Positions 1,506-57,456 of a stretch of DNA of 64,000 bases are shown piece after piece. A program made the translations under genes and the position numbers. Source of the DNA: Candidatus Scalindua sp. (GTDB lineage Bacteria; Planctomycetota; Brocadiia; Brocadiales; Scalinduaceae); contig JASMMK010000013.1 of NCBI GenBank assembly GCA_030748215.1, forward strand, positions 1-64,000, read 5' to 3'. The notes below the pieces were generated by a model, which saw only the letters and a list, made by a program, of their open reading frames with translations, was not told the DNA's origin and ran no database searches. The stretch's first letter is position 1. Each line of letters opens with the position of its first letter.

Positions 1506-3080
1506 TCATTCCTTTCTCTTCCAACCCAGCAACAAATCTGTATACTCCCCATGCTTCCAGAAAGAATAGGCACTGTGTTTGATGCCTATTTTTTCTTCTA
1601 TCTCAGCAAATCGTTTAAGCTTGCTCGCCTCATCCTTTATCTGAATAAGCCATCGATCCTGAGCCCATTCCCAATACCCATAAACAGGGCTGTAATAGGC
1701 GTTATGTGATTTGGCTTTAAAGATAGCATCAATAATATCTACCAGCATTTCGTAGGCCAGTCGCTCAATATTAGACACGTTATATTTCCTCACCTCCCCC
1801 TTTCCAGGTAAAAGACTGAAGACACTGTGACCGGTAGAATCGGGAGCAAGGTCGGCAGGCATGGGATCTATTAGATTGTGATTGTACAGGTCCATCACAA
1901 TGCGCATCGCCTCACGGTATTTAACAAAGCTGAGTTTAACCGCTTCATCCATAGCCTCTAAATGGTCTCTTGCGAAACGGGGTGAATGGCAATCCTTACA
2001 GACCGCAATCCACGCATCTCTTGTCGCCCTGTACTTATCCGCCCCTCTGTCTACAAGAGAAGTGCCCATGAAAGTATAAACGGTAGATGTACTGATGACA
2101 TTATGATCTCCTTTTGGCATATGGCAATATGCGCATGTTGGAACCGTATAGTTTTCCGCGTTGAGAGGCTTCGACCAATCCCAGGTTTGCCCTTCTCCCT
2201 GAAAAATCATACCATGGTATGATTGCATATACATCTCATACTCATATTGCTCAGGGCCGGAATGACAGACAGCACAACTGTTTGGTTTTCTCGCCTCAGA
2301 TGTAAAAAACCGGTGCCGGGTATGACAGCCATCACATCGGTTCTCAACGGCATGACAGCCGAGGCAGGCAGCTGTCTCTTCGGCAGGTTTCTCCGTTTGA
2401 CACCCTAACTCGATTAACTCAAGATGATAGGCATTAGCATGCGAACCTTGACCACTTTGACGATGCCCTTGTAATTGCTTTTCGTGGCACTCACCACAGA
2501 GATTGTAAGAAGGCATTTTGAGCTTTTTATGATTCTTCCCGTGGCATCTGTCACATCCAACTACGTCTTTTCCACTGGACGGTGTTCCGTGTTTGCTCTG
2601 CTTCCATTGAGTAACAATTCCCGGGCTTTCTACCATGTGACAGGTAACGCACTCTCTATTTGTAAACTCTCCTTCTATAGTACTACCGGGATGAAAGATG
2701 TCACTGTTATAATAATATGCGGGGTCGTACCATCGTATCAGAGGCAAAAAACTATAAAGATTTCCGTACGTTCCCTTTCCGGGAAATAGTTTCTCCGGGC
2801 CGGTATAAAAGCTTGTAAGCCCACCCAAATGGTGAACGTTTCCTGAATCATCCGGGCCGACTCTTTCTCCCAGGAGTTCGGCCATCTCGTATTGAAACTT
2901 CATGCCACCCGACACTGCTCCTGATGCTGATGCTGTTTCACCCATAAGCGTTTCAAGGTTTAAGGATTCAGCCTCTTCTGTTTCCCGGGCAGATGAAGTG
3001 ATTGGGACATGCGAAAAGATAAAGACGGATACAATCAAAAGCGGGATGATAAAGAATGGTTTTGTGTTATTATTGAACAT
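1506..3080 (-). CDS. secreted octaheme cytochrome, hydroxylamine oxidoreductase (HAO) family
   Basis: A 524-residue exported multiheme c-type cytochrome. An N-terminal signal peptide with hydrophobic core FFIIPLLIVSVFIF is followed by exactly eight CxxCH motifs (CVTCH, CDRCH, CGECH, CLGCH, CDGCH, CAVCH, CAYCH, CKDCH; about residues 144-365), then a helical, Tyr-rich C-terminal third with no heme. Eight hemes followed by long C-terminal helices is the layout of HAO, hydrazine dehydrogenase and related octaheme enzymes. True HAO carries a Tyr cross-linked to its catalytic heme; Tyr-rich segments lie at about residues 461-473 (AYYSPVYGYWEW), but I cannot assign the cross-link Tyr without an alignment, so hydroxylamine oxidation versus nitrite reduction stays open. 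The ATG at 3080 is preceded by GGAGG at good spacing; an ATG 12 bases upstream contains that site and is unlikely. Monocistronic or paired with the CBS gene downstream; divergent from tdh. Confidence 0.9.
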   Translation of the reverse strand: MFNNNTKPFFIIPLLIVSVFIFSHVPITSSARETEEAESLNLETLMGETASASGAVSGGMKFQYEMAELLGERVGPDDSGNVHHLGGLTSFYTGPEKLFPGKGTYGNLYSFLPLIRWYDPAYYYNSDIFHPGSTIEGEFTNRECVTCHMVESPGIVTQWKQSKHGTPSSGKDVVGCDRCHGKNHKKLKMPSYNLCGECHEKQLQGHRQSGQGSHANAYHLELIELGCQTEKPAEETAACLGCHAVENRCDGCHTRHRFFTSEARKPNSCAVCHSGPEQYEYEMYMQSYHGMIFQGEGQTWDWSKPLNAENYTVPTCAYCHMPKGDHNVISTSTVYTFMGTSLVDRGADKYRATRDAWIAVCKDCHSPRFARDHLEAMDEAVKLSFVKYREAMRIVMDLYNHNLIDPMPADLAPDSTGHSVFSLLPGKGEVRKYNVSNIERLAYEMLVDIIDAIFKAKSHNAYYSPVYGYWEWAQDRWLIQIKDEASKLKRFAEIEEKIGIKHSAYSFWKHGEYTDLLLGWKRKE

Positions 3081-3274
3081 AATTACCTCCATATAATTAC
3101 TGTATCAAAGAGTTTCAGAAAAATAACTCAAATAACGTATGAATCTTAACATTAAATTAAAAAAAATACACTTTTTATTTTCTTAAATATAGCTGATAAA
3201 CATTGATAAATTAAAACGTATATACTATCATTTTAACTGACATATTTTAGAAATTGTTTAATAGGTGTTTCCAG

Positions 3275-6909: not shown

Positions 6910-7808
6910 ATGAAAATTGCCATTACCGGTTTGTCAGGTTTCCTGGGGCATTATGTAGCAAAGAAACTCTTTGAGAGAGATGTTCAGATGCAGGCGTTGG
7001 TACGGAGCACAAGTGATACTTCACACCTGAATGGATACGAAAGGAAGATTACGTTTGTAGAGGGTGATCTGGGCGACAAAAAAGCCTTAAAGAAACTTGT
7101 TCAAGGTACCGACATAGTCATCCACATGGCTTACGAAAGAAATGGAGAAGGTTTTCGCGGCTCAGCCGGTAAGGATATCAGGCGATTACTGGATGTAAAC
7201 CTATCAGGCAGCCTGGAGCTGTTGGATGCTGCCAAAAACATGGAGCGAAGCAATTCATTTTTACCAGCTCCTGTGCCGTCTATGGATATATCTATCCCGA
7301 TATCAAACTCGACGAACAACACCCCCTTATACCGGATTCAAACTATGGCGCCTATAAAGCTGCAGTAGAGGCATTCTGCCATTCGTATTTCTTGTCAAAG
7401 AGCATTATTACAACCATGTTCCGTCCAGTAGGTATCTACGGAATCGATCCAAATCTTGTCCACTCTGATTGGTACGAATTAATTAAAAACATCAAAAACG
7501 GAGTTGGCGTAGAGGTGGCAGGAGGTGGCAAGATAGTAGATGTTACAGACGTTGCGCACGCCATATATTCAGCAATTGACAACAGAGGTGCTTTCGGGAA
7601 AGTCTATAATCTGTCAGACTTCTATATCGACAACATGTCTATCGCAGAAATGGCCAGAGAGATATGCGGTTCCAAATCCAAAATCAGCGGTACACCCAAA
7701 CAGCCGAAGAATACTATCGATAATACCAAATCAAAAAAGCTTGGTGTGCGGTATGCGGGAACGGAAGGTTTAAGTCAGTATATTAAAGAGTTGATTGAGG
7801 TTGTTTAG
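6910..7808 (+). pseudogene. NAD-dependent epimerase/dehydratase, frameshifted
   Basis: Extended short-chain dehydrogenase with N-terminal GLSGFLGHYVAKKL (Rossmann glycine motif) in the first frame. After AAKNM (near 7240-7246) the protein continues in another frame as AKQFIFTSSCAVYGYIYPD, with the catalytic Ser in TSSC and the YxxxK pair in YGAYK, then runs to 7808. Restoring one base (ATGGAGCG to ATGGGAGCG) gives an uninterrupted 299-residue protein, normal for dTDP-glucose/UDP-glucose-type epimerases. The substrate is unknown. Because nothing else is damaged, a missing base in the assembly is more likely than real decay. Confidence 0.82.
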
Positions 7809-7871: not shown

Positions 7872-10800
7872 TTACATCTGTTTTCTCGCTCCCTCCGGTA
7901 AAGTGGCCATTGCCATCAAGAGGTCATCGTTATCCGGTTTGGATTTTACAAATGAGGAGAAAAGGAGGGTAGCTTCCGTGTAGATACCTTTTATTATTTC
8001 TATGATATTCTCATCAGGAATATTGTTGGAACTTATCACATTTTCCATATTTGATATCAATATGACAAGTGTCCAGTAATCGAGTGGTGTTCGTTTCATC
8101 AAATCGTCACGCAGATAGGTTAGATAATTCCTTAAATTCTCAAGCGTTTCTTCTGATAATGTTTTTCCCTTTCCGTCTTTTGATAGATGCGGATTAGGCG
8201 TGATTACCATTTCAGCAATTTCTTTGGATAGTTCGGCCACGGCGACACGTCCTATTGCCATGATGGAAGCTGCAGTTCTCATTTCAATCTTTCTTTCCTG
8301 AGAAATCTTGATTATATCATCAAATATCATGCAGATATTGTCTTCAAGCAATCTATTTATTTTGTCTAAATCCCAACGCTCGTTCTTTAAATTTTGTACC
8401 CATTCAAGATAAGAGACGAATACACCTCCCAGATTTGTGCTTATATCTGGAGAAATAAATGTACCTTTTCCTGTTACAATCCTGTCGCCTTCAGGAGTGA
8501 CAGGCCCGTTTGCACCCTCCACAATCACTTTTGCCTTTACGCCATACGCATTCCTGTCAATAGCATTCTCAAGTGCAGCAAGGACGAGGAAGTCGACATC
8601 CAGTGCAAAAATACCATCATTTGTGACCTCCCTTCCACCCTCGAATCCTTTCAAGAAACCTCCACCTGTCGTATCTACATATTTCAGAACGGCATCTATA
8701 TTCAAGCCACTTGGATTGTAGATGCCTCCACTGGCATCTGTAATAGCGACTACCTTTGCTCCCTCATCATACAGGAATTTTGCCGGCGGCCTGCCTACAT
8801 TACCAAACCCCTGTATAGCAGCAGTTGCTCCTTTGAGTTTTATGTTTTTATGATCGGCAGCTTTTTTAAGGGCGATAAAAACGCCACGACCCGTTGATTC
8901 GCCCCTGCCAAGCGAACCTCCCTTATCGGCTGGTTTGCCGGTGACGACGGCAAGTGCATGACATTTTGCTTCGGGGTATTTTTTCAGCACCTCCATGCAT
9001 TTATCGAGATATGGGGTCTCCATAGGATAAGAAGGCTGTTCGTGAAGTGAGTAAAATTCATTCATAATTTTACCAGTCAACCCTGTATCATCTGTCACCC
9101 AATCAGATGAATCTTTGTTTTCTACCGAAGACTTCAGATATTCATCTATAAACCACGCCATTTTAGTGGGATTAGTATTGACGTCAGGAGCTGGTATATC
9201 AAGTTGTGGCCCAATAGCATTTCTGCTCTTCAGTTCGCGGCTATATTCTCTGATTATCAATGCATCTTTTCTCTCAATTAAATTTCGCGGGTTTGTGATG
9301 ATACCGCCTTTTGAACCTCCATATGGTATTCCAGCAACAGCGCATTTCCACGTCATCCAGATAGCAAGCGCCCTGACCTCATTGAGTGACACTTCCGGGT
9401 GCTCCCTGAATCCTCCTTTAGCAGGACCACGGGCTGAATTGTGATGTACCCGATAGCCAATTATTTCATCACCTGAAAGCCGTAATGCTTCCACTCGCTC
9501 AGGGGCAAGTAATTTCTTTTTCAAAAATAGAGGAAGTTTTAAGAGATCCGCAACAACCGCAAATTGACTTTCTGCCACTTCGAGTGGACTTGGCATGGCC
9601 ACGGAATGTTCCCGTATCTTTGTATATTCTTTAAGAGTTACACCGGGCACAGAAAACAGTTGGCTGATTCTTTCGAATTCCCCGATATTTTCTCTGTAGT
9701 TTGTTATATTTACTGCAATCCCACTCTTAATCTCGAGGAATCTCTCCAGCTCTTCTGTATTTGCCGCATTAAGATTTACTTTCTCTTTTGCGGGTTCTTT
9801 TGGTTTCAGATGTTCCTTCACAGGAAGATCATCTAAATGGTTAAGTGCAGTCAGTCTCTCACCGGCAAGAAACTTTAATGCAGCCTCTCCTACCGTAAAA
9901 AGGTACGTCTTTGGGGGGGGAGGTTTTGAGCCAAGCCTTTTTTGTGCTGCAGCAACACTGTGAAGACCAAGTATAATCTTGGATTCCGCTTCACTTGCAA
10001 ACACAAGATCCAGGATATGATTTGTACCATGGCAAAACATTTCATCTTCATATTTTCCCGCGATCCCATTGAAGATGATGGTTTTTGCGTCCCGCATCTT
10101 TTTCTGTATAAGAGAGAGCGTTCCGGGACCAACGTCATATGCCTTCAACCGTAAAAATTTTCCACTGATTTTGTTCACTTTAACATGCACCGGATTAAGC
10201 CCTGTCGGCTTTGCCATAAAGTGATCAACGGGAAGTACTATATCAACACCATATCCCTTCGCCAACTCAAGCACTACGGTTGCATTATAAAGCGCCTGCG
10301 CCCGCGAATCCTGATCTGCTTCAAACATACAGCTATCCACATCGTGTCCCTGTACCTTGAGAAATGGAAATGCAATACCACCGACAAAGATCAGCTTGTC
10401 AACCTTACCGTAAACAATAAGGTTTTTCATCGCCTCAACCTTGGCGGAGACGTTGGCACCCCCGATAATAGCGACTACAGGTTTATGAGGGTGCCTCATA
10501 AAATTATCAAGTGCAGTAAATTCCTGCGTAAGCAGGAATCCGGCTACCTTCGGGCCTGAGATAAGGCTCGTTATCGGACCGAGTGATGCATGGTGCCCCA
10601 TATGGGCTGTTACCGGGTCGGCATTTACATAGACATTACAATTGGTAGCACTATGAAGCTGTTTAGCAAACTCCATTACCTCGTTATCATCCTCTGAAGT
10701 TTCACCGCTACGAAACATTACATTTTCCAGAAGAAAGATGCCGTCTTTACTAACAGTGGATTTTACTTCCTCCCCAACACAGTCATCGGTTAAAACAACC

Positions 10801-11186
10801 TCTCTCTCTTCCGATAGGAGTTTTTTCTCCCTCAAAATCTCTGTCAGTCTTTTTGCCACTGGCTTCAGACTATAGCCGTGATGGATCTCTCCATCATTTG
10901 TAACCCCTACAGAGGTATTGTTATCTTTGAAAAAGTTCTCCCTTACACCGTTGTGGGACACAATGACAATTGTCCTTGCTCCCTGCTTCAGTATGTGGCG
11001 AATGTCCATAACAGTCGCCCTGATACGCCTGTCATCAATTATTCTGGCATCCCATACGACATCGTAGTTTACTCTTAAGAAAACTCTCTTCCCATCTAAA
11101 GCGGATTTATGAAGATTGCGGATGGGTGTTTTGTCGGCATATGGATACCACTCGATTATCTTAGTATATTGATCGGTGTTTTTCAT
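7872..11186 (-). CDS. fusion: degenerate phosphoglycerate kinase-like domain + helix-hairpin-helix + glutamate dehydrogenase
   Basis: A 1104-residue protein. Residues about 35-447 follow phosphoglycerate kinase end to end (IIDDRRIRA, LLENV, VVAIIGGANVSAKVEAMKNL, GPGTL) but key positions differ: the DFN substrate motif reads NYD, SHxGRP reads SHNGVRE, the lysine of GGAKVS is Asn, and GGDS reads GLHS. The kinase is therefore probably inactive. Residues about 469-528 form a ComEA-like helix-hairpin-helix segment (VNLNAANTEELERFL). Residues about 534-990 are a Glu/Leu/Phe/Val dehydrogenase with catalytic lysine in IPYGGSKGG, DIPAPDV, and NAD loop GFGNVG, plus an insertion near 685-740. A C-terminal helical tail of about 110 residues is extra. 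Start set at ATG 11186; a TTG three codons upstream is possible. Expected activity: reversible oxidative deamination of glutamate. Confidence 0.88.
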   Translation of the reverse strand: MKNTDQYTKIIEWYPYADKTPIRNLHKSALDGKRVFLRVNYDVVWDARIIDDRRIRATVMDIRHILKQGARTIVIVSHNGVRENFFKDNNTSVGVTNDGEIHHGYSLKPVAKRLTEILREKKLLSEEREVVLTDDCVGEEVKSTVSKDGIFLLENVMFRSGETSEDDNEVMEFAKQLHSATNCNVYVNADPVTAHMGHHASLGPITSLISGPKVAGFLLTQEFTALDNFMRHPHKPVVAIIGGANVSAKVEAMKNLIVYGKVDKLIFVGGIAFPFLKVQGHDVDSCMFEADQDSRAQALYNATVVLELAKGYGVDIVLPVDHFMAKPTGLNPVHVKVNKISGKFLRLKAYDVGPGTLSLIQKKMRDAKTIIFNGIAGKYEDEMFCHGTNHILDLVFASEAESKIILGLHSVAAAQKRLGSKPPPPKTYLFTVGEAALKFLAGERLTALNHLDDLPVKEHLKPKEPAKEKVNLNAANTEELERFLEIKSGIAVNITNYRENIGEFERISQLFSVPGVTLKEYTKIREHSVAMPSPLEVAESQFAVVADLLKLPLFLKKKLLAPERVEALRLSGDEIIGYRVHHNSARGPAKGGFREHPEVSLNEVRALAIWMTWKCAVAGIPYGGSKGGIITNPRNLIERKDALIIREYSRELKSRNAIGPQLDIPAPDVNTNPTKMAWFIDEYLKSSVENKDSSDWVTDDTGLTGKIMNEFYSLHEQPSYPMETPYLDKCMEVLKKYPEAKCHALAVVTGKPADKGGSLGRGESTGRGVFIALKKAADHKNIKLKGATAAIQGFGNVGRPPAKFLYDEGAKVVAITDASGGIYNPSGLNIDAVLKYVDTTGGGFLKGFEGGREVTNDGIFALDVDFLVLAALENAIDRNAYGVKAKVIVEGANGPVTPEGDRIVTGKGTFISPDISTNLGGVFVSYLEWVQNLKNERWDLDKINRLLEDNICMIFDDIIKISQERKIEMRTAASIMAIGRVAVAELSKEIAEMVITPNPHLSKDGKGKTLSEETLENLRNYLTYLRDDLMKRTPLDYWTLVILISNMENVISSNNIPDENIIEIIKGIYTEATLLFSSFVKSKPDNDDLLMAMATLPEGARKQM

Positions 11187-11565
11187 AACTATCAATAAGA
11201 GAAATCAGCCCTGCCGGTTTGTTCTGACAAACCATAAAGTTTCTACTGAAACTATTTTGATAACTACACAATTTTTATACAACAACTAACATGTTGTTTT
11301 CTTTCTAAAGTTAATGGCTCTTTTACGTTACAACTAGACGTTAGTCAAGCCTAATTGCATTCAATAAAAAAAATGGATTACATTTTAATAAGACACAGGA
11401 AATAGAATACGTTGTATAGACCATCGCTAAATTTGTCTGCAAAATCTTATATAATCTTTCAGGGAAAGTATGGTAAAATGCTCCGCATGAATTTTATTAA
11501 GTGATTATCAAGCTTTCTTCTCTGAAAGTTTTTTATTAAAAATTAGAAAGGCAATAGGCGGCATT
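11187..11565. other. 379-bp divergent intergenic region
   Basis: AT-rich spacer between the fusion gene (-) and plsC-like gene (+). It must contain both promoters. No frame, tRNA or strong hairpin was seen. Confidence 0.5.
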
Positions 11566-28928: not shown

Positions 28929-30929
28929 TTAAGCCTTTTTCTCAACCTCTCCGGAATCACCAATATGACGTGTTTCCTGGTTCTCTGTATTCTTGGATGC
29001 TGCAGGTGCATGCTTCTGTACCCAGCGGAGATGCAAGGTGTCATGCTTGTAGTGGTGACGCATCTGTACCTTATGCTCAGGGAAACCGAGGAAGTTGCTG
29101 AAGTAAAACAGGAAAACCAACACTGTGTTCACCTTAAGGATGAAAAAACCCTTCAAGACAACATAAGGCGCGACGGCTGCAGTATGGTGGACGAGATACT
29201 CCCAGCCAACAAAGGTACCAAGACCCGGCACGCCAACTATTGTGAGACCCAGGAGAAACAGTAGCGCATTTGTGAAAGGAGAACGAGAGAGCCTGGCGGT
29301 ATAACTCGTATGTTTCTCGTCGTCTTGTGAGAGTGCATACACCGTATAGAGGGCAATCATCACAAAGGCGATAGCAAGGACAATCAAGAACACCCAGTAC
29401 CACTGATTTGTCGAATCCACATGCTTTATCAATTGCTCCTCCTGGACAAGACCTACCGTCCAGGCGGAGCAAATGAGTGTAACGAAAAACATGCTTATTT
29501 TGCGTATATTGCAGAAACAGAGAACTGTGAAGCCCACAGCGAGAGACATTAAGAGTACATCTTTGACATCGAAATGATTCCTGTTGATACTGAAAAGTAC
29601 AGCATTAAATATTATCCATGTCGAAGCCACTGATATGCTGAAACTGCCCGCAGATTTCTTGTCAAAACGCAGAAATTTTAAGCCAAGAAACCGGTCTATC
29701 AGATCGAAGGACCGCGATAAGAAACCAAACTCATTTATGGTGAGTGAGTAAAGCCAGTTTCTCAGACTCTCCGGAAACATCGATATGAAGTGTTTCCCAG
29801 TGCTTGTCATCCTGGGACGGCGTGTTTCCATAGTGTGGTAATGATGGAACAACGAAGGGGTGCGCAAGAACTCAAATGTCCGATATATTCCATGAGACAC
29901 CACGTGGATCAGGGCCAGGGTGTATAATCCAAAGAAAACCTCGATGTAAATAATCGCTAACTGTGTTGTAGTGGCATATGCAATAGTATTCTTGGCATCA
30001 GAGTGTTGCCGGCTCATAAGGGTTGTGACAAATGCAGAAAATATACAAATGACAATCGCAAGAACAATGGCATTGGCCGGATGTGCAATTGTCCACACAT
30101 CAGGCCAATATGCCGGAAAGGTCCACTCCTGTGGCCAGACACGCAAGAGAAAAAAAATGGGGATATGTGACGATAATGACCCATAGAAAATCGCACTTGA
30201 AGGTGTGGGGCCCTCCATTGCCCGTGGCAAATAGATCCATGGAAAAATACCTGACTTGAAGAAGCATGCAACAATCAATAAAAACATTGCCCACTCGCAG
30301 CCATGTTCCTGGATCAATGACAGTTTGGTAATATCTTCAATGTGGAAGAAGAGCAGCAACAAGATCAGGGAAAAGAAGAAAATATCACCAAACTCGTAAA
30401 TGAACAGCACGCGTAAGGCATTCTTAAGCGGATTGGAACGATGCTCGTAGAAAGCGATAAGAAGTACCGACGAAAGGCCCAATAGTTCCCAACCCATGAA
30501 CAAATAGGTAGTACTGGAACTGAGAACGATAAGAGCCAGAGCCAGCTGAAAGATAAAATAGAGAGAAAAGAACTTATAATAATACGCATCACGGTGCAGG
30601 TAGAAGAGAGAAAATCGGCCGATGACCGCGATGATTGTAGTCGTAAAGGCCAAAAAAATAATCGTGTGGAGATCCCAATGCACGACGAGTGGCCAGCCTA
30701 TGAGACAGAAGGATTCAATCCTTACCGGTACGGCGTTGAATCCCACGAAAATCAAGGCAATTACGATGTGAATAATATCACTTGCGCATCCCCAGGAAAC
30801 CAGTTTACGGACTAGGCGCTCCTCTCGCTCCTGCACGTTAGTAAAAAACTGGATATTTACATAAAGCACTTTGGCAATTGGAAACAGTACGAAATAGTGC
30901 GCAATGTATGTAATCAAATAGTTTTCCAC
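28929..30929 (-). CDS. dabB: DabB-like proton-conducting membrane subunit of inorganic carbon transporter
   Basis: 666 residues, about 14-16 membrane helices, related to NuoL/MrpA antiporter subunits (LALIVLSSSTTYLFMGWELLGLSSVLLI, FLLIVACFFKSGIFPWIYLPRAMEGPTP). There are no other complex I genes here; the gene lies 10 bp after dabA, which marks it as DabB. The pair couples ion flow to energised CO2/bicarbonate accumulation. I place the start at GTG 30929, seven bases after AGGAG; an adjacent TTG at 30932 is an alternative. Reading further upstream would overlap dabA. The long, hydrophilic C-terminus ends in a His/Lys-rich tail. Confidence 0.87.
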   Translation of the reverse strand: MENYLITYIAHYFVLFPIAKVLYVNIQFFTNVQEREERLVRKLVSWGCASDIIHIVIALIFVGFNAVPVRIESFCLIGWPLVVHWDLHTIIFLAFTTTIIAVIGRFSLFYLHRDAYYYKFFSLYFIFQLALALIVLSSSTTYLFMGWELLGLSSVLLIAFYEHRSNPLKNALRVLFIYEFGDIFFFSLILLLLFFHIEDITKLSLIQEHGCEWAMFLLIVACFFKSGIFPWIYLPRAMEGPTPSSAIFYGSLSSHIPIFFLLRVWPQEWTFPAYWPDVWTIAHPANAIVLAIVICIFSAFVTTLMSRQHSDAKNTIAYATTTQLAIIYIEVFFGLYTLALIHVVSHGIYRTFEFLRTPSLFHHYHTMETRRPRMTSTGKHFISMFPESLRNWLYSLTINEFGFLSRSFDLIDRFLGLKFLRFDKKSAGSFSISVASTWIIFNAVLFSINRNHFDVKDVLLMSLAVGFTVLCFCNIRKISMFFVTLICSAWTVGLVQEEQLIKHVDSTNQWYWVFLIVLAIAFVMIALYTVYALSQDDEKHTSYTARLSRSPFTNALLFLLGLTIVGVPGLGTFVGWEYLVHHTAAVAPYVVLKGFFILKVNTVLVFLFYFSNFLGFPEHKVQMRHHYKHDTLHLRWVQKHAPAASKNTENQETRHIGDSGEVEKKA

Positions 30930-30939
30930 CAAATGTCTC

Positions 30940-33588
30940 CTATGTAATCTGTCCAAACAATAGATGGTCCTGTTCAAGAAAAAATCGTGGATCGTTGCTC
31001 TTATATTCAGGTACATCCACTGTCTCTTCGAACGGTACAAACCGACCTTCCATCCCGCCTTTCCACAAAAAAATCTTGTCCTGGTCTTGATCGTGAACTG
31101 CGAGAGTGATCCAATTGTGTTTCACCAGGCACTGAAAGTGCCCGGGCTCGTTAGTGTACCCGAAGGCCTCTCCAAGTATGGTCTCCATTGTCTCTATCTT
31201 ACAGCAAACGAGCAGGATCAATCGGGTTGGTTCGTGAACCTCAACCATTTGCCAGGGCAATCCCAACTGCAGGTCACTGAGATGGCCATTCATCACACCC
31301 ACCAGTGATGTTACGTTGTGAGGTAGTTTTGTACCGCAACCATAATGCTCGTTGTCAATAAAACTGAAATAGTACTCAAGACTGATTCCCGCAGTTACCG
31401 GTCCCACCGCGCCGAGGGTACCCCTCAAGAATTTCCCTTCAGGATCAACTTTATAATCATAGGAAACTAAAAACGCACGCCTGTCCAGAAAAAGATTTCG
31501 TGTTAAATATCTTGGGCCAACTATGGTAATCGCATTGGTGCAGTGACCATATTCAGGCCTCGGCTGGGTTAGGTCCATAGCACGGCCGTGAGCATAATCG
31601 GCGAATCCCTTTTCCGGCAGGTCTGTTTTAACCTCATCAAAGCGTCTACAGCGTTCTTTTGCATCCAGCATCGCACCACGGTAAATAGTGTCGATATACT
31701 CTTGTAGTTGTGGCTCCAGGGTTTTGGAAAGGTCGAATAAAAGGACCTCGTCACTGCATGTGTTATGATATCCGCCTATGAACAGGGTCGAATCCGGAAT
31801 GATTACACCGTTTTTTGCCAGCCCCGCACGAACTTCAGGTTCGTTGCAAATGGCCGCAAAGAGGCGCCCGTTGGGCGCACCCCGGCCACCCGCACACGCA
31901 CCACAGTCGTGTGCGGCTTCGTGAGGGTTATTTAGACTATTCGATCCATGTCCCAGGATAAACATGTATGGTGAAAAGTTGTCCGATAATCCACTGCCTT
32001 TGAGTATCGCCGTGGCACGTGCAATTCGTTCTTCCAGATCCCACCCTTCTTCATTCTCATGAGTCTCTTTTTTGTAGACCAATCTCGTCTTTGATTCATA
32101 GGCTGCAAGATAACGCCTCAATTTTGAACTGTCCTCAGGCAAGAGAATGTCCATTAAATATGGCATGAAATTAATGATACCGCTGATAATTGTGTGGAAA
32201 AAGCCCCCGACAAAGGTCTTCGAGGCTTGAGTGATCGCCCACTGCACCTCTGCGTAGAGCTGCAGCTTCTTTGGCATTGCATCTTCGAGTTTATCTGCCT
32301 CTTCATAGACTTGCACTGATGGTGTTACCATAGGGTGCGGGCACATCTTGCGGTAATGCTTTCCAGGTGCACTCTTAAATCTCATATCAAGGGCGAAATG
32401 CCCCGCTGCTCCGAGGGTCTCGACATCCGGATCAATCTGCTCCAGCTGGCGGCGGAAAGATTCTTCACGTTCATCGATGCAGCAGAAGACCTGGTAATTC
32501 GGAAGTTTGTATTTCGGCTTATCCTCGATAGCGCACTTTCGATATGCTGATAGGAATTGATTGTAGAAGGTATCCTCATAGGCGCGCTGCCAGATCTCCT
32601 GGCGATTTTCGTCAGTAAGCTGAGTAACTTCTCTGGGGAATTCATCGTAGCTATTTATACCTAAAGCCGTCACCATGGAAGCAACAAAACCGGGATCGTA
32701 CAAAGGAACCGGTTTATAGAATGGAATTTTCATGATTGCCGATCCGCATATGGATGTAACCGCAGCGAGTTCGAGGAGGAGAATAATGGGAACGACCTCT
32801 TTAAAGACTGCCTTGATATCGGGGTTTGGAATCCATTCCGGCATCTCTTCCAGGGATTTAATGGTACCCACCCACCCCCTGTAGCGATACAGGGTGCGAA
32901 ATAGATAGTCATCCAGGTGTTCATCGGGAATGGCCAAGTGTTGAAGCAGAAGTGCTGTTGCCTCATCACATGGGTACTGTTTCATTTCTGAGGTAATACC
33001 ATTCAGAATTTTGATGAATTCTGGCCTGAAGAAAGAGCTCTTAGAGTAAATTTCGCTAAAGCAGTGCCAAAGCCCTTTTTCCCGATGCGGCATCTGCCAA
33101 TAGGATATGCCGAAGTCGAAATATGATGGTAAGAACTTAAAGAGAACTACTGGGCCCATCAACTCGTCTATGTTACGGTTGTGAACATTTTGAACCGCCT
33201 CTTTAAAATAGCCAGGGCGTTGATACGCAGTGTCATTTACAAACTGCTGAATTTTCTCGGACGGTTTAGGGCGAGCATCTGGTTTCTCTGTCATGAGCTT
33301 GAACAGGAGATCTGGCTCAATATTAAGCTCGTGATACTTGAAATATTCTTCGATATTCTTTTGAAGAACGGCCTCTGTAATGCGGCCCCGTTCAAATGAG
33401 AGGAGAAATTCTTCTTCGGACATAAAGGCTTTGGCGTTATAAGCGCGTCCCGCCTGTTTAACACCTTCAAAAAAGTCGTATGTCTCAAAGTGGTGAATGG
33501 TATTGTGGTGAACGAAGAAAGGGAGCGGACCTTGATCCGGCATCAAATGCTTTGCGTGTTCAATAGCATGTTCAATCTTGCCTGACAT
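30940..33588 (-). CDS. dabA: DabA (DUF2309/UPF0753) inorganic carbon transporter subunit
   Basis: 882 residues. The carbonic-anhydrase-like zinc site expected in DabA is present: CIDER (Cys370, Asp372, Arg374) and ILGHGS ... DCGAC with His547 and Cys562, spaced 15 as in the characterised protein. Other family blocks include FFVHHNTIHHFE at the start and YVxD-like HYGCGTKLPHNVTSLVGVMN near the end. The protein is soluble/peripheral and would hydrate CO2 vectorially on DabB. GGGGAGGG precedes ATG 33588. It lies between SulP-2 and dabB on one strand. Confidence 0.92.
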   Translation of the reverse strand: MSGKIEHAIEHAKHLMPDQGPLPFFVHHNTIHHFETYDFFEGVKQAGRAYNAKAFMSEEEFLLSFERGRITEAVLQKNIEEYFKYHELNIEPDLLFKLMTEKPDARPKPSEKIQQFVNDTAYQRPGYFKEAVQNVHNRNIDELMGPVVLFKFLPSYFDFGISYWQMPHREKGLWHCFSEIYSKSSFFRPEFIKILNGITSEMKQYPCDEATALLLQHLAIPDEHLDDYLFRTLYRYRGWVGTIKSLEEMPEWIPNPDIKAVFKEVVPIILLLELAAVTSICGSAIMKIPFYKPVPLYDPGFVASMVTALGINSYDEFPREVTQLTDENRQEIWQRAYEDTFYNQFLSAYRKCAIEDKPKYKLPNYQVFCCIDEREESFRRQLEQIDPDVETLGAAGHFALDMRFKSAPGKHYRKMCPHPMVTPSVQVYEEADKLEDAMPKKLQLYAEVQWAITQASKTFVGGFFHTIISGIINFMPYLMDILLPEDSSKLRRYLAAYESKTRLVYKKETHENEEGWDLEERIARATAILKGSGLSDNFSPYMFILGHGSNSLNNPHEAAHDCGACAGGRGAPNGRLFAAICNEPEVRAGLAKNGVIIPDSTLFIGGYHNTCSDEVLLFDLSKTLEPQLQEYIDTIYRGAMLDAKERCRRFDEVKTDLPEKGFADYAHGRAMDLTQPRPEYGHCTNAITIVGPRYLTRNLFLDRRAFLVSYDYKVDPEGKFLRGTLGAVGPVTAGISLEYYFSFIDNEHYGCGTKLPHNVTSLVGVMNGHLSDLQLGLPWQMVEVHEPTRLILLVCCKIETMETILGEAFGYTNEPGHFQCLVKHNWITLAVHDQDQDKIFLWKGGMEGRFVPFEETVDVPEYKSNDPRFFLEQDHLLFGQIT

Positions 33589-35517: not shown

Positions 35518-36579
35518 CTATTTTTTAAAATCTTCTTTAATCGTAAATGAAAAGTTGAGTTTGGGTCGCAGATAAATAAACCAGAACGCTAAGCCGGCCA
35601 GAACAATACCACCCACAACATTTCCTATAAATACAGGGAATTGATTGATAACAAAGAACCCTTTCCAGGTAAGATTGGAGAAGTCTAATGTTTTTCCCGC
35701 CATCTTTTCCGCAGCAGCAACAACTTCAGGTTTACTCTTTAAGATTATACCCATAGGGATAAAGTACATGTTTGCTACTAAATGCTCAAATCCACTTGCA
35801 ACAAATCCGCCTATTGGAAATATAAGAGTCATGACCTTGTCTGCCACATTCCTGGCACTGAAACATACCCATACTGCCATACACACCATCGCATTGCAGA
35901 GTACCGCCTTTGCAAAGGCATTGGTAAATGTTAAATTAACCTTTTTGTTGGCAATAAGCAATGCCTTTCCGCCGACCACATAATCATAGAACGAAAATTG
36001 TTGTGCCTTATACACACAGAAAACAACTAATAGGCTCCCTACGAAATTCCCAATCAACGAAATAGTCCAGTGATCAAAGATTTTCTTGGTTGTAATCCTT
36101 TTTTCCATATATCCAATGAAAATCATACAGTTACCCGTAAAGAGCTCTGCGCCACCAACCACAACCATTATCAGACCAAGACAGAATACAATAGCCCCGA
36201 CTACTGCCGTAAGCCCGGCGTGCAGTCCTGAATCACTTATCACTAATGTCGCGAATTGAGCACCCAGCGCTATAAACGCGCCGGCATTAATACCCAGCAA
36301 AAATGTATTTATAGCAGAATCTTTTGCCTTTACACCTGTCACTGCATCAAGCCGTCTTGCGATTTGTGGAGGTGAATAAGCGTCTATATCAATAGACAGG
36401 GGACTTTCTGGTGCCGCTACTACCGTTTTTGTCGTTCTAGCAGGTTTAGCTGCCTTCGTTTTCCTGACAGTTTTTGTCGTTCTAACAGGTTTAGCTGCTT
36501 TTGTTGTCTTGGCAGTTTTCGCCGTTTTAACAGGTTTTGATGTCTTAGCAGCAGTTTTTCCAGTCTTTTTTTCAGCCAT
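35518..36579 (-). CDS. formate/nitrite transporter (FNT) family channel with basic N-terminal tail
   Basis: 353 residues. The C-terminal 290 form an FNT/FocA-NirC channel with six helices; the pore His lies in FVASGFEHLVANMYFIPMG and the conserved Lys in KVNLTF. The first 55 residues are instead a tail of Lys, Thr, Ala and Pro in near-repeats (KAAKPVRTTKTV, KAAKPARTTKTV), as in histone H1-like or KAAKP proteins. It follows the other FNT gene by 14 bp. The channel moves nitrite, formate or related anions; the tail has no known role in FNT proteins. Confidence 0.88.
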   Translation of the reverse strand: MAEKKTGKTAAKTSKPVKTAKTAKTTKAAKPVRTTKTVRKTKAAKPARTTKTVVAAPESPLSIDIDAYSPPQIARRLDAVTGVKAKDSAINTFLLGINAGAFIALGAQFATLVISDSGLHAGLTAVVGAIVFCLGLIMVVVGGAELFTGNCMIFIGYMEKRITTKKIFDHWTISLIGNFVGSLLVVFCVYKAQQFSFYDYVVGGKALLIANKKVNLTFTNAFAKAVLCNAMVCMAVWVCFSARNVADKVMTLIFPIGGFVASGFEHLVANMYFIPMGIILKSKPEVVAAAEKMAGKTLDFSNLTWKGFFVINQFPVFIGNVVGGIVLAGLAFWFIYLRPKLNFSFTIKEDFKK

Positions 36580-36593
36580 TTTGACCTACTTTC

Positions 36594-37508
36594 TTATTTC
36601 TTTGCTGTTCGTAAAAATACAAACCAATAAACACCCGCAACTAATATAATTCCACCAAATAAGTTTCCAAGGACAACTGGAACCAAATTATCAACTATGA
36701 ACCCTTTACCGCAAGTCAGATTCGAAATATCTAAAGGTCCTCCATTTGCCTTTTCAACAGCTTCCATAACGAAACGGTTACCTTTCAAGATAAGACCCAT
36801 CGGAATGAGCCACATATTAACCACGCAGTGTTCGAACCCACAAGCTATCAGACAGGCTATTGGCCAGAGTAAAGACAAAACCTTATCCACGTTATTTCTG
36901 GCGCTATAACACAACCAGATACCCAGACATACCAGAACATTACAGAGAACCCCTCTGGCAAAAGCAACACCAAATGCAAGATTAACCTTGTCATTGGCAG
37001 CAATGACAATTTTGGCTCCTAGCAGATGGTTGTGGGCTGTCCACTGTGCGGAAAAGTATATCCAGAAAACTATACTTAACGCACCTATAAAATTTCCGAT
37101 AAAAGCGATAACCAGATTCCTGGTGAGGTCTCCACTAGTAATCTTTCCGGAAAAATAGGACATGGCAATAATACAATTTCCCGTAAAAAGCTCTGCACCC
37201 GTAATTACGATCAGGACCAGAGCCATGGTAAATGTGATACCACCAACTAACGCATTTAAACCGAAACTGGAGGTTGCAGTATGTGTTACCATCATCATTA
37301 GCTGTGCGCCTAATGCAATAAAAACACCGGCAAGGATACTAAGGGCAAGAGTAGTCAGGAAACCCATATTCGCTTTTGATATTCCCACCTGCCCTACTCT
37401 GTTTGCCATCATCTTGGGGGCATAAGCATCGATATCAATGAATGGAGTATTGGCCAGCTGGGCCGTGCTTGAAACGCTTTCTACTTCTTTTTTCTTCTTA
37501 TCAGACAT
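36594..37508 (-). CDS. formate/nitrite transporter (FNT) family channel
   Basis: 304 residues, six-helix FNT channel. The pore His is in LIACGFEHCVVNMWLIPMG, with the conserved Lys in NDKVNLAFG and RGVLCNVLVCLGIW between. The N-terminus has a short Lys/Glu/Ser head and an amphipathic segment (IDIDAYAPKMMANRVGQVG) also seen in the downstream copy. GGCGG precedes the ATG. First of a two-gene operon. Substrate is probably nitrite in this metabolic setting; formate is the alternative. Confidence 0.92.
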   Translation of the reverse strand: MSDKKKKEVESVSSTAQLANTPFIDIDAYAPKMMANRVGQVGISKANMGFLTTLALSILAGVFIALGAQLMMMVTHTATSSFGLNALVGGITFTMALVLIVITGAELFTGNCIIAMSYFSGKITSGDLTRNLVIAFIGNFIGALSIVFWIYFSAQWTAHNHLLGAKIVIAANDKVNLAFGVAFARGVLCNVLVCLGIWLCYSARNNVDKVLSLLWPIACLIACGFEHCVVNMWLIPMGLILKGNRFVMEAVEKANGGPLDISNLTCGKGFIVDNLVPVVLGNLFGGIILVAGVYWFVFLRTAKK

Positions 37509-38966: not shown

Positions 38967-41486
38967 TCAGCAACATGGAACATCTCCTTCGTCTGAAGGG
39001 CTACAACTGTATGGTGCCTTATTTCCGTCATTTACATTAAATATCGTAAACTGTCCCGTATAGGGTGGATTGCTTAATTTTTCTGCAGTATCCGTACATA
39101 CCTCGACAGGTTCGTTTCTTGGGAACAGGTGACCTTCTTCATCCGTTATCGCCTTGTACGGTCCGTGGTAAACAGCCCTCTGCCCGATGTAAACACAACC
39201 CTCTTCCGTTTCAAACTTGTACCCACGCAGTGTTACGGAGTAGAATGAGTATCCCTCCACCTCTTTCCAGAACACCTTGGACAGTGTCTGGAGTCCGTAG
39301 AAACCGGCCTGTTCAAGATAGGCCATAAATTCATCTTCGGTAAGTGCACCGCTGATACACTCACCCCATAACTGTTTGTTAAGTTTAAGATGCGGAGGAG
39401 TCTCAACCTGAGAGACAATATCAGATATTACAATCCTGCCGTGGTCTTTCAGGACTCGCCACATTTCACTGAAAACGGCTTTTTTATCAGGTGATAGGTT
39501 GACTACACAGTTCGACGTAATCAGATCAACCTTACTATTATCAACCGGAATATCTTCCAGGAATCCTTTTCTGAATTCCACAATATCGTAGCCAAGATTC
39601 TTTGCCACCAACTTTCTGTTTTCATTTGCAACCTTCAGCATCTCATCCGTCATATCAATTCCGTAAATCTTCCCCTTCGGACCGACTTTTTTAGCAGCAA
39701 TGAAACAATCAATCCCTGCGCCTGCACCCAGATCTACCATGGTCTCTCCCTCAGAGACCTTAGCAATAATCGTCGGACTCCCGCATCCATAGAACCTGTC
39801 CAATACCTCCTGTGGGATATGACTGGTATCTTCCTCAGAATTTTTGGTCGGGCAGCATAGTTCCTCTTGGGGCTCTTCCGCTGCTTTACCATAAAATTCA
39901 CGCACAATACTCCTGGGCTTATCAACATCAAAAGAGAGTACACAGTTAGAATGAAGAGTGTGAACAGATTGTGAGCCTGCAACTTGTTGATCGGCACCGC
40001 AGACCGCTGTGCCATCACCCATAGACCTTAAGACAGTGGGAGCACTGAATCCTGTTTTTCTATCCTGCATTTTCTTCCTGACTTCGGCAAGTTCAAAGAC
40101 AACATCCTTTGTTATCTCCTTGTGCAGATCGCAATAAGGATCAAGAGCATGTATGCCGACGCCATCCGGAAATCTATCCGACTCCAGCTTGAACCCGTTC
40201 TCCGAGTAAAAGAATGAATGCTCAATATCCCCGCCTCCACATATAAATTTAATATGACACTCCCTACACTTATCCTTATTCTGAAGTGTTGCGTTTCTGA
40301 ATGCCTTGCTCATATTACTGTTTTCCCAGATTTCCCTGAGTGTATTATCAAGAACGTTTCCACATCTCAGGCCTGCATGGCCGGCAAATGAAGCAGACGG
40401 ATAGACGTCTCCTGTTGAATACACACACATACTGTCGTAACATGCATTTCCCAAATCATACCGTGTGCCCCTCTGGCTGTTTGCCCTGAATTTGTATGAG
40501 TCATGGTTGTCGACTGAAATACCTGATTTTTTTGCAACCTCCTTTACTTTTCTCGTTATTTCAATCACCTCATCTATCGGAGGAATGGAGTTATTTCCAT
40601 TGTCAGTGATCCTGCCTCTTTTGTGAGCCCACAAAAGATGGTGAGTTTTCACGCCCAATGAAGCTAGCAACTTTGTCGTTTCCGGTATGTCATCTATATT
40701 GCTGTTTGCAACGACCGTTGTTACCGTTGGAGGAAATCCTGCACTAACAATTTCCTTTATCCCTTCAACTATCAGATTAAAACTACCCTTGCCTCTTAAC
40801 GGATCGTTGATCTCCGGCTTTGAACCATCAAGACTTATCTGGATCTTTAAGAGCTTCTTATCAAACTTTTGTAACTTTTCTATAGTTTCTCCCTTCAGGA
40901 GCGTTCCGTTCGTAAGTATTATAAGTTCTGATTTTTTTTGATTACAGATGTAATCGATAAGTTCAAAAATGTCCTTTCTCATGAGGGGTTCTCCACCCGT
41001 GAAGTAAAAGCGGGATGTTCCCAATACCGCAGCCTCATCAATAATCTTTTTGATGCTTTCTGTTGACAGACCTCCATCCTCATTAGGTGATGAATTAACC
41101 AGGCAATGTGAACATGTCAGATTGCATGAATTATTTGTATGTATCCACAACTCATTGAGCCTGTCCGCATGAATGAAATCTGCACGCCCTGTGTAAGCAA
41201 CCTTCTTTGCCGGTTCTGATGTCAGAAATTCAGACCTTATCAGGTCCTTCAGTAATGTATGAACCTCCTGCCATGCCCTGGTGTAGTCCATATCAAAATT
41301 GTTTGCATAGTTGTTCATCAGCTCTTTAACATTTTTACAGTTCTTAATGTCGTCTATAATCTGACTGCCCCTTTTATCAGTAATAATCCAGTTAGGCATC
41401 TCAGGATCAAGAAACAGGTGAAGTGAGTCTTGTTCTATATGGTAATAATCAGGTGCGTAAAAAACCGATTTTTCATTAATTTCCAT
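38967..41486 (-). CDS. PqqD-like RRE + radical SAM/SPASM + ArsM-like methyltransferase fusion
   Basis: 839 residues. About 1-95 resemble a PqqD-like RiPP-recognition wing (IITDKRGSQIIDDI ... LLKDLIRSEFL). Residues 110-330 are radical SAM with CxxxCxxC at Cys121, Cys125, Cys128 and GGEP at 164; a SPASM cluster domain follows (Cys349, 354, 375, 407, 410, 416, 452). Residues about 545-750 are an arsenite-methyltransferase-like SAM domain: VDLGAGAGIDCF, the ArsM Cys blocks SNCVVNL (Cys660) and GECISGALTEDEF (Cys710). The last 80 residues are Cys-rich and end in two Cys. The ATG at 41486 has GGAG upstream. Substrate is unknown; arsenic or a peptide are both possible. Confidence 0.86.
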   Translation of the reverse strand: MEINEKSVFYAPDYYHIEQDSLHLFLDPEMPNWIITDKRGSQIIDDIKNCKNVKELMNNYANNFDMDYTRAWQEVHTLLKDLIRSEFLTSEPAKKVAYTGRADFIHADRLNELWIHTNNSCNLTCSHCLVNSSPNEDGGLSTESIKKIIDEAAVLGTSRFYFTGGEPLMRKDIFELIDYICNQKKSELIILTNGTLLKGETIEKLQKFDKKLLKIQISLDGSKPEINDPLRGKGSFNLIVEGIKEIVSAGFPPTVTTVVANSNIDDIPETTKLLASLGVKTHHLLWAHKRGRITDNGNNSIPPIDEVIEITRKVKEVAKKSGISVDNHDSYKFRANSQRGTRYDLGNACYDSMCVYSTGDVYPSASFAGHAGLRCGNVLDNTLREIWENSNMSKAFRNATLQNKDKCRECHIKFICGGGDIEHSFFYSENGFKLESDRFPDGVGIHALDPYCDLHKEITKDVVFELAEVRKKMQDRKTGFSAPTVLRSMGDGTAVCGADQQVAGSQSVHTLHSNCVLSFDVDKPRSIVREFYGKAAEEPQEELCCPTKNSEEDTSHIPQEVLDRFYGCGSPTIIAKVSEGETMVDLGAGAGIDCFIAAKKVGPKGKIYGIDMTDEMLKVANENRKLVAKNLGYDIVEFRKGFLEDIPVDNSKVDLITSNCVVNLSPDKKAVFSEMWRVLKDHGRIVISDIVSQVETPPHLKLNKQLWGECISGALTEDEFMAYLEQAGFYGLQTLSKVFWKEVEGYSFYSVTLRGYKFETEEGCVYIGQRAVYHGPYKAITDEEGHLFPRNEPVEVCTDTAEKLSNPPYTGQFTIFNVNDGNKAPYSCSPSDEGDVPCC

Positions 41487-41535
41487 TTTAACTCCTACCT
41501 CCAACAAGACATTTTGTAAAAAAAAGAAAAACTGA

Positions 41536-41720
41536 GCCACTAAAGCACAAAAACACTAAGTGAATACTGATTTTAAATAAACAGATTCGTTGCACTCCAT
41601 CATTTTTCCATCTCCGCATGTTCACATAATAGAAAAGGCGATTATTATTGATGACGAACTCTCTCGATTAAACATTACTATATTTCATGCTTTTTCTTCG
41701 TGTCTTTGTGCCTTAGTGGC
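41536..41720. repeat. MITE-like element with imperfect terminal inverted repeats
   Basis: Left arm GCCACTAAAGCACAAAAAC at 41536 and right arm, ending at 41720, read GTGTCTTTGTGCCTTAGTGGC; the 21-bp ends match with about two differences. Inside is AT-rich sequence. The right end is translated as the last residues of the adjacent membrane glycosyltransferase (CLATKAQRHEEKA), so that C-terminus is repeat-derived. Confidence 0.7.
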
Positions 41721-55749: not shown

Positions 55750-57456
55750 ATGGAAACTATGAAAGCAATAATTTTTGATCTTGATGATACGCTATACGAT
55801 TGCACGGGCTCGCTACTTGAAGCGTCCCGAAAACGTGCTGCAAAGGCAATGGCTGATGCAGGGTTGCCGTGCACAGAAGAAGAAGCATATTTAATGCAAA
55901 AAGAAATTTCAGAGAAGCATGGACCTTATTTTCCTGTCTTCAATGAAATCGCAAGTAAATACAATAAAGACCACGATTTCATCAGCGCGGCCCTGAAGAC
56001 ATATAATAGCAATGAAGTAACGGACATAAAACTCTTTCCAGATGTAGTGCCAACTTTAGAAAGATTAGCGCTGGAAAAATATAAGCTGTTCCTGCTGACA
56101 ACAGGACTCCACGAAAGGCAACATAAAAAGATAGAGTTGTTGGGTCTGAAACCTTACTTTGATGAAATAATAATTAATGATCAGGAAGTTGGTCTATTAA
56201 TGGAAGACTGCTTTGAGGCAATCGTAAGAAAGTATTCATTAAGCCCTCAGAATGTTATTGTCGTTGGAGACCGGGTAAGGGAAGAGTTGAGGATTGCAAA
56301 AACCAAAGGCATGGTAGCCGTTCAGATGTTACATGGAAGATTTAAAGAAGAAACTGCATATGACAGTTCAAACAAACCCGATTACAAGATAAAACGATTT
56401 TTCCAGCTGCCGACTTTGCTCAAATTGAAAGATATTGGAAAAACGCATGACACACTGAAGATGCTAGCCTTTGGTGGCGGCACGGGTCTCCCAATTGCAC
56501 TTGAAGGCATGAAAACATATAGCAAAGATTTAACGGCAATTGTAACCGTAACAGACTCTGGCAGAAGCTCAGGCGTCATAAGAGAAGAGTACGGTATATT
56601 GCCCCCCGGGGATGTAAGAAACTGCCTGGTAGCACTTTCGGAAACAGAGGAGCAGGAAAAAGATTTATATCAGCTTTTTCAATACCGGTTTGATAAAGGG
56701 TCACTTAACGGGATGAGTCTAGGCAATCTATTAATGGCAGCATTAACGGATTTAACCGGAAGCTTTGATCTCGCCATTAAAAAAGCAAGCAAGATACTGG
56801 CGATCAAAGGAAAGGTTCTACCTTCCACGCTTACCAGTACTCACATTTGTGCCGAATTAAAGGATGGTTCAATCGTAGAAGAAGAGTTGAATGTACGCGG
56901 CCTCAATAAAGCACCGATAGAAAGGCTCTTTCTGAAAACAAACGATACCAAATGTCCACCAGACGCAATTAGTGAAATTGAAAAAGCAGATATAATCGTA
57001 ATTGGCCCGGGAAGCCTTTACACAAGTATCATATGCAATCTTCTTGTCGGTGGTGTTAAAGAAGCATTACAGAACTCAAAAGCAGTAAAAATATATCTCT
57101 GTAATATTGTAACACAGCCGGGACAAACAGATAATTACACTGCATCGGATCATATCAAGGCAGTTACAAGATATCTTGGTGAGGGAGTTTTAGATTATGT
57201 GCTTGTTAATAACAATTTCCCACGTAAGGAGATAATTGAAAAGTATAGAAAAGAGGGAGCTGACATTGTCGCTCTTGATGAAAATCTGGAAAACAATAAT
57301 GTTGCGGTGGAGGTTACCGATTTAATTGAAAATCTAGATCAAAAAAGGATCTTGTGGGAAAAGCAGGATCTGATAAGGCACGATCCTGAAAAACTGGCAG
57401 ATTCTATCTGCAGGATTTTTGCTAAATTATCACTCTCTGGCACTGAACGTAATTAA
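55750..57456 (+). CDS. fusion of HAD phosphatase and YvcK/CofD-like protein
   Basis: 568 residues. About 1-225: HAD hydrolase of the pyrimidine 5'-nucleotidase type with DLDDT (10-14), LTTG (motif II) and VVGDRVREEL (motif IV). From about 236: YvcK/UPF0052 (CofD-like) domain with FGGGTGLPIALEGMK, TVTDSGRSSG, GILPPGDVRNCLVAL, IVIGPGSLYTSII and NIVTQPGQTDNYTASDH. YvcK is needed for gluconeogenic growth and cell shape in Bacillus and binds UDP-sugars. The HAD part may cleave a related nucleotide. No strong ribosome binding site is visible. Confidence 0.87.
   Translation: METMKAIIFDLDDTLYDCTGSLLEASRKRAAKAMADAGLPCTEEEAYLMQKEISEKHGPYFPVFNEIASKYNKDHDFISAALKTYNSNEVTDIKLFPDVVPTLERLALEKYKLFLLTTGLHERQHKKIELLGLKPYFDEIIINDQEVGLLMEDCFEAIVRKYSLSPQNVIVVGDRVREELRIAKTKGMVAVQMLHGRFKEETAYDSSNKPDYKIKRFFQLPTLLKLKDIGKTHDTLKMLAFGGGTGLPIALEGMKTYSKDLTAIVTVTDSGRSSGVIREEYGILPPGDVRNCLVALSETEEQEKDLYQLFQYRFDKGSLNGMSLGNLLMAALTDLTGSFDLAIKKASKILAIKGKVLPSTLTSTHICAELKDGSIVEEELNVRGLNKAPIERLFLKTNDTKCPPDAISEIEKADIIVIGPGSLYTSIICNLLVGGVKEALQNSKAVKIYLCNIVTQPGQTDNYTASDHIKAVTRYLGEGVLDYVLVNNNFPRKEIIEKYRKEGADIVALDENLENNNVAVEVTDLIENLDQKRILWEKQDLIRHDPEKLADSICRIFAKLSLSGTERN

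Follow-up and report, generated by a model that had tools for sequence, protein, structure and literature searches.

A phosphoglycerate kinase-family domain, predicted to be dead, joined to a glutamate dehydrogenase in marine anammox bacteria around Candidatus Scalindua

In the family of marine anammox bacteria around Candidatus Scalindua, a phosphoglycerate kinase (PGK) family domain appears to have become the N-terminal, non-catalytic module of a multidomain glutamate dehydrogenase (GDH). The gene lies on the minus strand at positions 7872–11186 of the window, the 64,000-nucleotide stretch of Candidatus Scalindua sp. DNA analysed here, and encodes 1104 residues from ATG to stop codon. In the model that we favour, a degenerate ComEA-type helix-hairpin-helix (HhH) joins the putative pseudo-PGK to an ELFV-type GDH that carries extra residues between its lobes and a helical extension at its C-terminus. 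The GDH would be active and hexameric, and the pseudo-PGK together with the HhH would be a folded unit for assembly or for the docking of partners, which would position or regulate the live-looking GDH, rather than a sensor of three-carbon phosphates. We give this reading a probability of roughly one half. On this view the cell would have two GDHs, with the fusion under a control unlike that of the ordinary enzyme.

The reading frame ends with a stop codon at 7872–7874 and starts either at a TTG at 11195, as in the ORF listing, or at the ATG at 11186 that gives the 1104-residue form. A Pfam profile search finds four families in it, all above their curated cut-offs. With limits quoted on the TTG form of 1107 residues, these are PGK at residues 31–446 (PF00162, E 6.7e-76, 256.2 bits against a cut-off of 27), HHH_3 at residues 470–529 (PF12836, E 5.2e-12, 46.1 bits against a cut-off of 27), ELFV_dehydrog_N at residues 578–686 (PF02812, E 3.9e-41) and ELFV_dehydrog at residues 759–988 (PF00208, E 6.3e-64). 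The search thus confirms the first-pass annotation, which had read a PGK fold, a ComEA-like HhH and a complete GDH in a single protein; beyond that annotation, the protein has about 55 inserted residues between the GDH lobes and 118 further residues at its C-terminus. A promoter scan returned 15 sites where 12.5 were expected, and no terminator was found in the same scan.

The PGK half (9858–11105, minus strand) is, as judged from its sequence, dead. The working PGK of this genome has a VDYN motif; in the window protein its Asp and Asn have become N40 and D42 (NYD), K215 has become N245 (GGANVS), the GGGDT loop reads GLHSV, and R122 and R170 are replaced by M157 and M196. The losses first read here, DFN to NYD, the Lys of GGAKVS to Asn and GGDS to GLHS, are all borne out. 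We take R38, K215, K219, N336, E343 and the GGGDT loop to be functional PGK sites. The roles of D23, N25, H62, R65, R122 and R170 are those given in PMC7729029.

Residues were counted against 17 canonical PGKs of the family in 11 aligned sequences (rows) of the 13 family members, namely the 10 complete rows and L014; the fragments G013 (L015) and G002 (L016) were excluded, and agree with the counted rows except for a Lys at R122 in G013. In 11/11 rows Asn stands at D23 and Asp at N25, so that the pair is swapped and fixed as N/D. K215 is Asn in ten of these rows and Arg in one, and the GGGDT loop is GLHSV or similar. When the fragments are included, R170 is Met in 13/13 rows and R122 is Met in 12/13. 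Other sites are kept: R38 and H62 in 13/13 rows, K219 in 11/11, N336 in 10/11 and E343 in 8/11. With an insertion next to it, the R65 column changes with the alignment (K in four, V in three, Q in two, T in one and E in one of the 11 rows as aligned), and the strict list, of 14 residues, does not include it. Read without a gap, it is Val in 10/13 rows and Arg or Lys in three deep rows (among the 11 counted rows, V in nine, R in L012 and K in L013); the basic patch is not gone from every fusion row. We looked for homologues in which the PGK residues are conserved and found none among the 13 rows.

To place these losses on a common scale, the columns invariant in the 17 canonical PGKs were split into 51 cleft columns, from a list that we drew up ourselves from PGK motifs, and 184 others. 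The fusion rows retain 22–26 of the cleft columns and 75–79 of the others, with no significant difference in any of the 11 rows. By contrast, 18 PGK rows from other loci (L051–L054, L056–L064, L093, L095, L097, L098 and L099) retain 44–51 of the 51 cleft columns; one of them, L099, has kept only 39% of the other columns and yet retains 48 of the 51. The strict list gives the same picture, with 4–5 of the 14 residues kept in 11/11 fusion rows vs 13–14 in the 18 controls. L055 is identical to a canonical family row and is not among the controls; L050, which has no PGK ORF, was omitted from the PGK tree, and L094 and L096 were omitted from the tree, the cleft test and the strict list. In the trees, each half of the fusion forms one well-supported group on a long branch. 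The domain is homologous to PGK (PF00162), but the catalytic and substrate-binding residues of that class are not conserved.

The GDH half gives a different result. With 18 stand-alone GDHs as the reference and 11 rows (the 10 complete rows and L015), it retains 56 of 60 active-site columns vs 53–58 of 105 others in 11/11 rows (p < 1e-7). The same column test, applied to both halves, suggests that the PGK half is dead and that the GDH half looks alive. The catalytic columns are retained in the N-lobe (ELFV_dehydrog_N, 9138–9464, minus strand), and GFGNVG is found in 11/11 rows in the NAD(P)-binding C-lobe (ELFV_dehydrog, 8232–8921, minus strand). All the lysine, aspartate and serine positions examined are likewise kept in 11/11 rows, in line with the earlier reading that the dehydrogenase keeps its catalytic Lys and NAD loop. 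Both ELFV domains, the catalytic Lys and Asp and the dinucleotide motif are present, as in the ELFV GDH class, with scores below the NCBIfam equivalog cut-offs (386 bits vs 750 for GdhA_Arch and 335 vs 620 for GdhB).

The inter-lobe insert (residues 686–742; 8961–9131, minus strand) is missing from the aligned stand-alone GDHs. The C-terminal extension (residues 987–1104; 7875–8228, minus strand) is found on the fusion protein only, in five of 392 phylum genomes, all of them fusion carriers. Neither part has a Pfam match above cut-off, and the best match of the extension to a solved structure has an E of 0.14. Full-length AlphaFold2 on 11 rows gave a mean pLDDT of 48.8, unusable for the PGK and GDH halves; in the extension, helices are predicted at residues 1011–1080 with a pLDDT of 81–91.

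The dead half is not decaying, but is under purifying selection like that on a working PGK, with a dN/dS of about 0.1. Over eight chosen pairs from nine of the 10 complete rows, dN/dS is 0.083–0.122 in the PGK half (where dS exceeds 1 in two pairs) and 0.046–0.131 in the canonical PGKs of the same genomes. For the same pairs, the GDH C-lobe evolves more slowly (0.031–0.082), and the insert (0.112–0.470) and the extension (0.132–0.275) evolve faster. Invariant runs of 9–17 residues occur in the PGK half, and residues 32–42 and 51–67 are invariant in 10/10 complete rows. Changed cleft columns are fixed no more often (14 of 24) than other changed columns (58 of 96), which, in a weak test on 11 related rows, speaks for a constraint on the whole fold and not for a rebuilt ligand site. 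The PGK half combines the fold family, the loss of catalytic residues and purifying selection that mark a putative pseudoenzyme.

We favour an assembly or docking module over a sensor because the cleft is under no special constraint, in a test to which 11 related rows give little power, and because the phosphate arginines are mostly gone. The first-pass annotation had described a dead kinase that may sense a three-carbon phosphate and control nitrogen assimilation. Its first part stands, in that a dead kinase is joined to a live-looking GDH, is kept in homologues and has an intact PGK beside it elsewhere in the genome. The arginine counts and the cleft test lowered the standing of three-carbon-phosphate sensing, which is disfavoured by the loss of R170 in 13/13 rows, Met at R122 in 12/13, Val at R65 (read without a gap) in 10/13 and the lack of extra cleft constraint. 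That the fusion controls nitrogen assimilation is something we infer. The main facts against assembly or docking are the retained R38, H62 and K219, as if part of the cleft still mattered. The basic R65 in three deep rows and the Lys at R122 in one also stand against it, as do neighbouring genes that suggest no partner and the absence of the gene from 4/17 family genomes.

A broader form of the first-pass idea is a sensor in which the old pseudo-PGK cleft can still take up a ligand, be it an anionic metabolite, a nucleotide or something new, and signals this to the GDH. Because R38 and H62 are kept in 13/13 rows, some anion site may survive, and the retention of K219, N336 and E343 in 11, 10 and 8 of the 11 rows, together with a swapped pair that is fixed as N/D amid the invariant residues 32–42 and 51–67, points in the same direction. 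However, both R122 (now Met in 12 rows and Lys in one) and R170 are lost in 13/13 rows, K215 and the GGGDT loop are lost as well, and the cleft has no excess constraint, so that we regard a sensor as possible but doubtful. Somewhat less likely again is that the pseudoenzyme, derived from a carbon kinase, is the allosteric control of the GDH, its cleft having been remodelled about R38, H62 and the N/D swap; were this true, the dead kinase would still read a carbon or energy signal, by which marine anammox bacteria would adjust how they make or break down glutamate. It is improbable that the PGK half has no role of its own and needs only to fold harmlessly for the sake of the GDH. The even constraint across the fold, with no hot spot at the old cleft, would fit such a passenger, but a dN/dS as low as that of a working PGK and the invariant runs would not.

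In the assembly or docking model, the HhH (9609–9788, minus strand) would be a joint. Its nearest solved relatives are EEPD1 and ComE operon protein 1, and these relatives are in keeping with a different arrangement, in which the functional element is the HhH, anchoring the GDH to nucleic acid or a membrane system while the PGK half acts as a spacer. GIG hairpins are the mark of the DNA-binding ComEA-type HhH; GIG is found at neither hairpin in any of the 12 rows. The HhH is also less conserved than the PGK half (27 of 60 positions invariant vs 243 of 424). We infer that the HhH is probably a structural joint and not a DNA-binding domain, and we consider a tether distinctly improbable.

The fusion is carried by 13 of the 17 genomes of the window's own family. 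Ten copies are intact and three are broken, those of G003 and G002 cut at contig ends and that of G013 interrupted by an assembly N run. Four family genomes (G005, G007, G012 and G014) lack the gene, so the family can do without it; given a completeness rating of 94% for G012, the absence there may be real. We found no fusion in 42 other genomes of the order, where the matches listed are PGK or GDH parts only, and saw none in 385 phylum genomes outside the family (of 392 sampled, seven belong to the family). Matches with a high score that extend to the HhH end of the profile occur in only five members of the phylum sample, all from the family, and the best match after these is an ordinary PGK at 204 bits. 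Among the matches listed, at least eight non-family PGKs in this sample sit in frames of at least 600 residues; in the seven of these that were inspected, with the eighth (G125) left out, the PGK is C-terminal in 7/7 and a GDH-like part follows it in 0/7. When 84,980 named species were scanned, 11 loci emerged (eight Candidatus Scalindua, two Candidatus Brocadiaceae bacterium and one Planctomycetota bacterium), which correspond to family genomes already counted; these names suggest that the family is that of Scalindua. As the scan relied on just two short peptide patterns, it may have overlooked a diverged fusion elsewhere. No relative of the fusion was found in viral contigs.

Working relatives of both halves occur in the same genome as the fusion. 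A canonical PGK, the separate intact copy that the first-pass annotation had thought worth seeking, is present in 17/17 family genomes, and a separate GDH-sized ELFV ORF is present in 9/10 genomes with an intact fusion, with a fragment only in G006. In the window's own genome, the PGK half shares 35% identity with the canonical PGK, and the GDH half 39% with the stand-alone GDH. G012 has no match at all to the ELFV dehydrogenase C-lobe. The gene neighbours of the fusion are not conserved: an acyltransferase gene is near in 5/11 loci and, reading by eye, a UbiD-like gene in 4/11. In the window, the fusion gene is divergent from the acyltransferase gene, and with unconserved neighbours no partner can be read from the context.

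The canonical PGK in 17/17 family genomes speaks against a bifunctional fusion protein, in which the PGK half would have remained an active kinase despite its altered residues, or would act on another substrate. The strong Pfam match, the retention in most rows of five residues from the strict list of 14, and purifying selection could be read in this way, but in 11/11 rows the cleft columns are no better kept than the rest, whereas real PGKs show a strong excess, and we consider an active kinase very unlikely. An assembly or frameshift error that joined separate genes is practically excluded: nothing in the fusion gene itself suggests one, although the neighbouring epimerase gene is split in the window, and the same part order runs without a stop in uninterrupted ORFs from 10 separate assemblies, at 73–89% identity. 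The split gene encodes an NAD-dependent epimerase (6910–7808) and forms two ORFs here; L036, L041 and L043 have a single one of about 300 residues.

Other PGK-like ORFs in these genomes have diverged as well. L082–L085 form a second divergent paralogue family with Asn at R170 in 4/4 members. L101 (G013:C20) is a third, very divergent PGK-like ORF of about 510–530 residues with a long insert, and similar frames occur at G006:C258 and G010:C67; the ORF after L101 reads by eye like a phosphofructokinase. Divergent PGK-like rows keep fewer cleft columns than ordinary PGKs (38 of 51 in L101, 35 in T_L081 and 31–33 in L082–L085), which indicates that partial erosion of the cleft occurs in other paralogues too. 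In the window's own genome, L003, at a contig end, looks by eye like the C-terminal end of a paralogue of the L082–L085 type.

Large GDHs with long N-terminal regulatory regions are known as the GDH-180 and GDH-115 class. Like the fusion, these carry a long non-catalytic region N-terminal to the GDH, but they belong to a different GDH class that is not among the four Pfam families matched here. Hexameric ELFV GDHs (Thermotoga maritima 2tmg and others) share both lobes and the catalytic residues with the fusion, which adds about 530 N-terminal residues, the inter-lobe insert and the C-terminal extension. On the PGK side, the available part of PMC7729029 describes dead or multidomain PGKs of kinetoplastids (PGKL, PGK-CNB-TMD and PAS-PGK) in which, as in the fusion, a PGK domain predicted to be inactive from residue loss is fused to other domains; in many of these species it coexists with working PGKs, as in the fusion genomes. 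Kinetoplastids are, however, eukaryotes, and the partners named in that part of PMC7729029 are PAS, cyclic-nucleotide-binding and transmembrane domains, with no GDH. The same source describes the PGK-TIM of Thermotoga, which resembles the fusion in that a PGK is covalently linked to a second metabolic enzyme; in PGK-TIM both enzymes are active, whereas in the fusion the PGK residues are lost and the second enzyme is a GDH. The fusion scores 246 bits against the PGK-TIM family of NCBIfam (PRK13962), far from its cut-off of 883, and no TIM family of Pfam or NCBIfam matches after the PGK, where the HhH and GDH stand instead.

The kind is known, since PMC7729029 reports kinetoplastid PGKs that are dead and joined to other domains, and the PGK–HhH–GDH combination appears to be new. 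Regulation of an active partner by a pseudoenzyme has precedents, but no dead PGK attached to a GDH was found in the literature searched, which leaves out most subscription journals; nor was the fusion found described in the available parts of papers on Scalindua GDH (PMC7438415) and ammonium assimilation (PMC10060263). With a dead and a live-looking half in one chain, and working relatives of both in the same genome, the protein is well suited to studying why a metabolic enzyme is retained once it is dead. For bacteria whose respiration runs on ammonium, an additional, separately controlled GDH would matter for the division of ammonium between respiration and growth.

The window holds several other genes of note. 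A hydroxylamine oxidoreductase-kind multihaem cytochrome is encoded at 1506–3092, and two formate/nitrite transporter genes lie side by side at 35518–37508. At 28929–33588, a gene for a DabA-type inorganic carbon transporter adjoins a Proton_antipo_M gene with an overlap of about 100 bases. Two further ORFs each combine separate domains, a radical SAM domain with SPASM and a methyltransferase domain at 38967–41540, and a HAD-type hydrolase domain and a CofD domain at 55750–57456.
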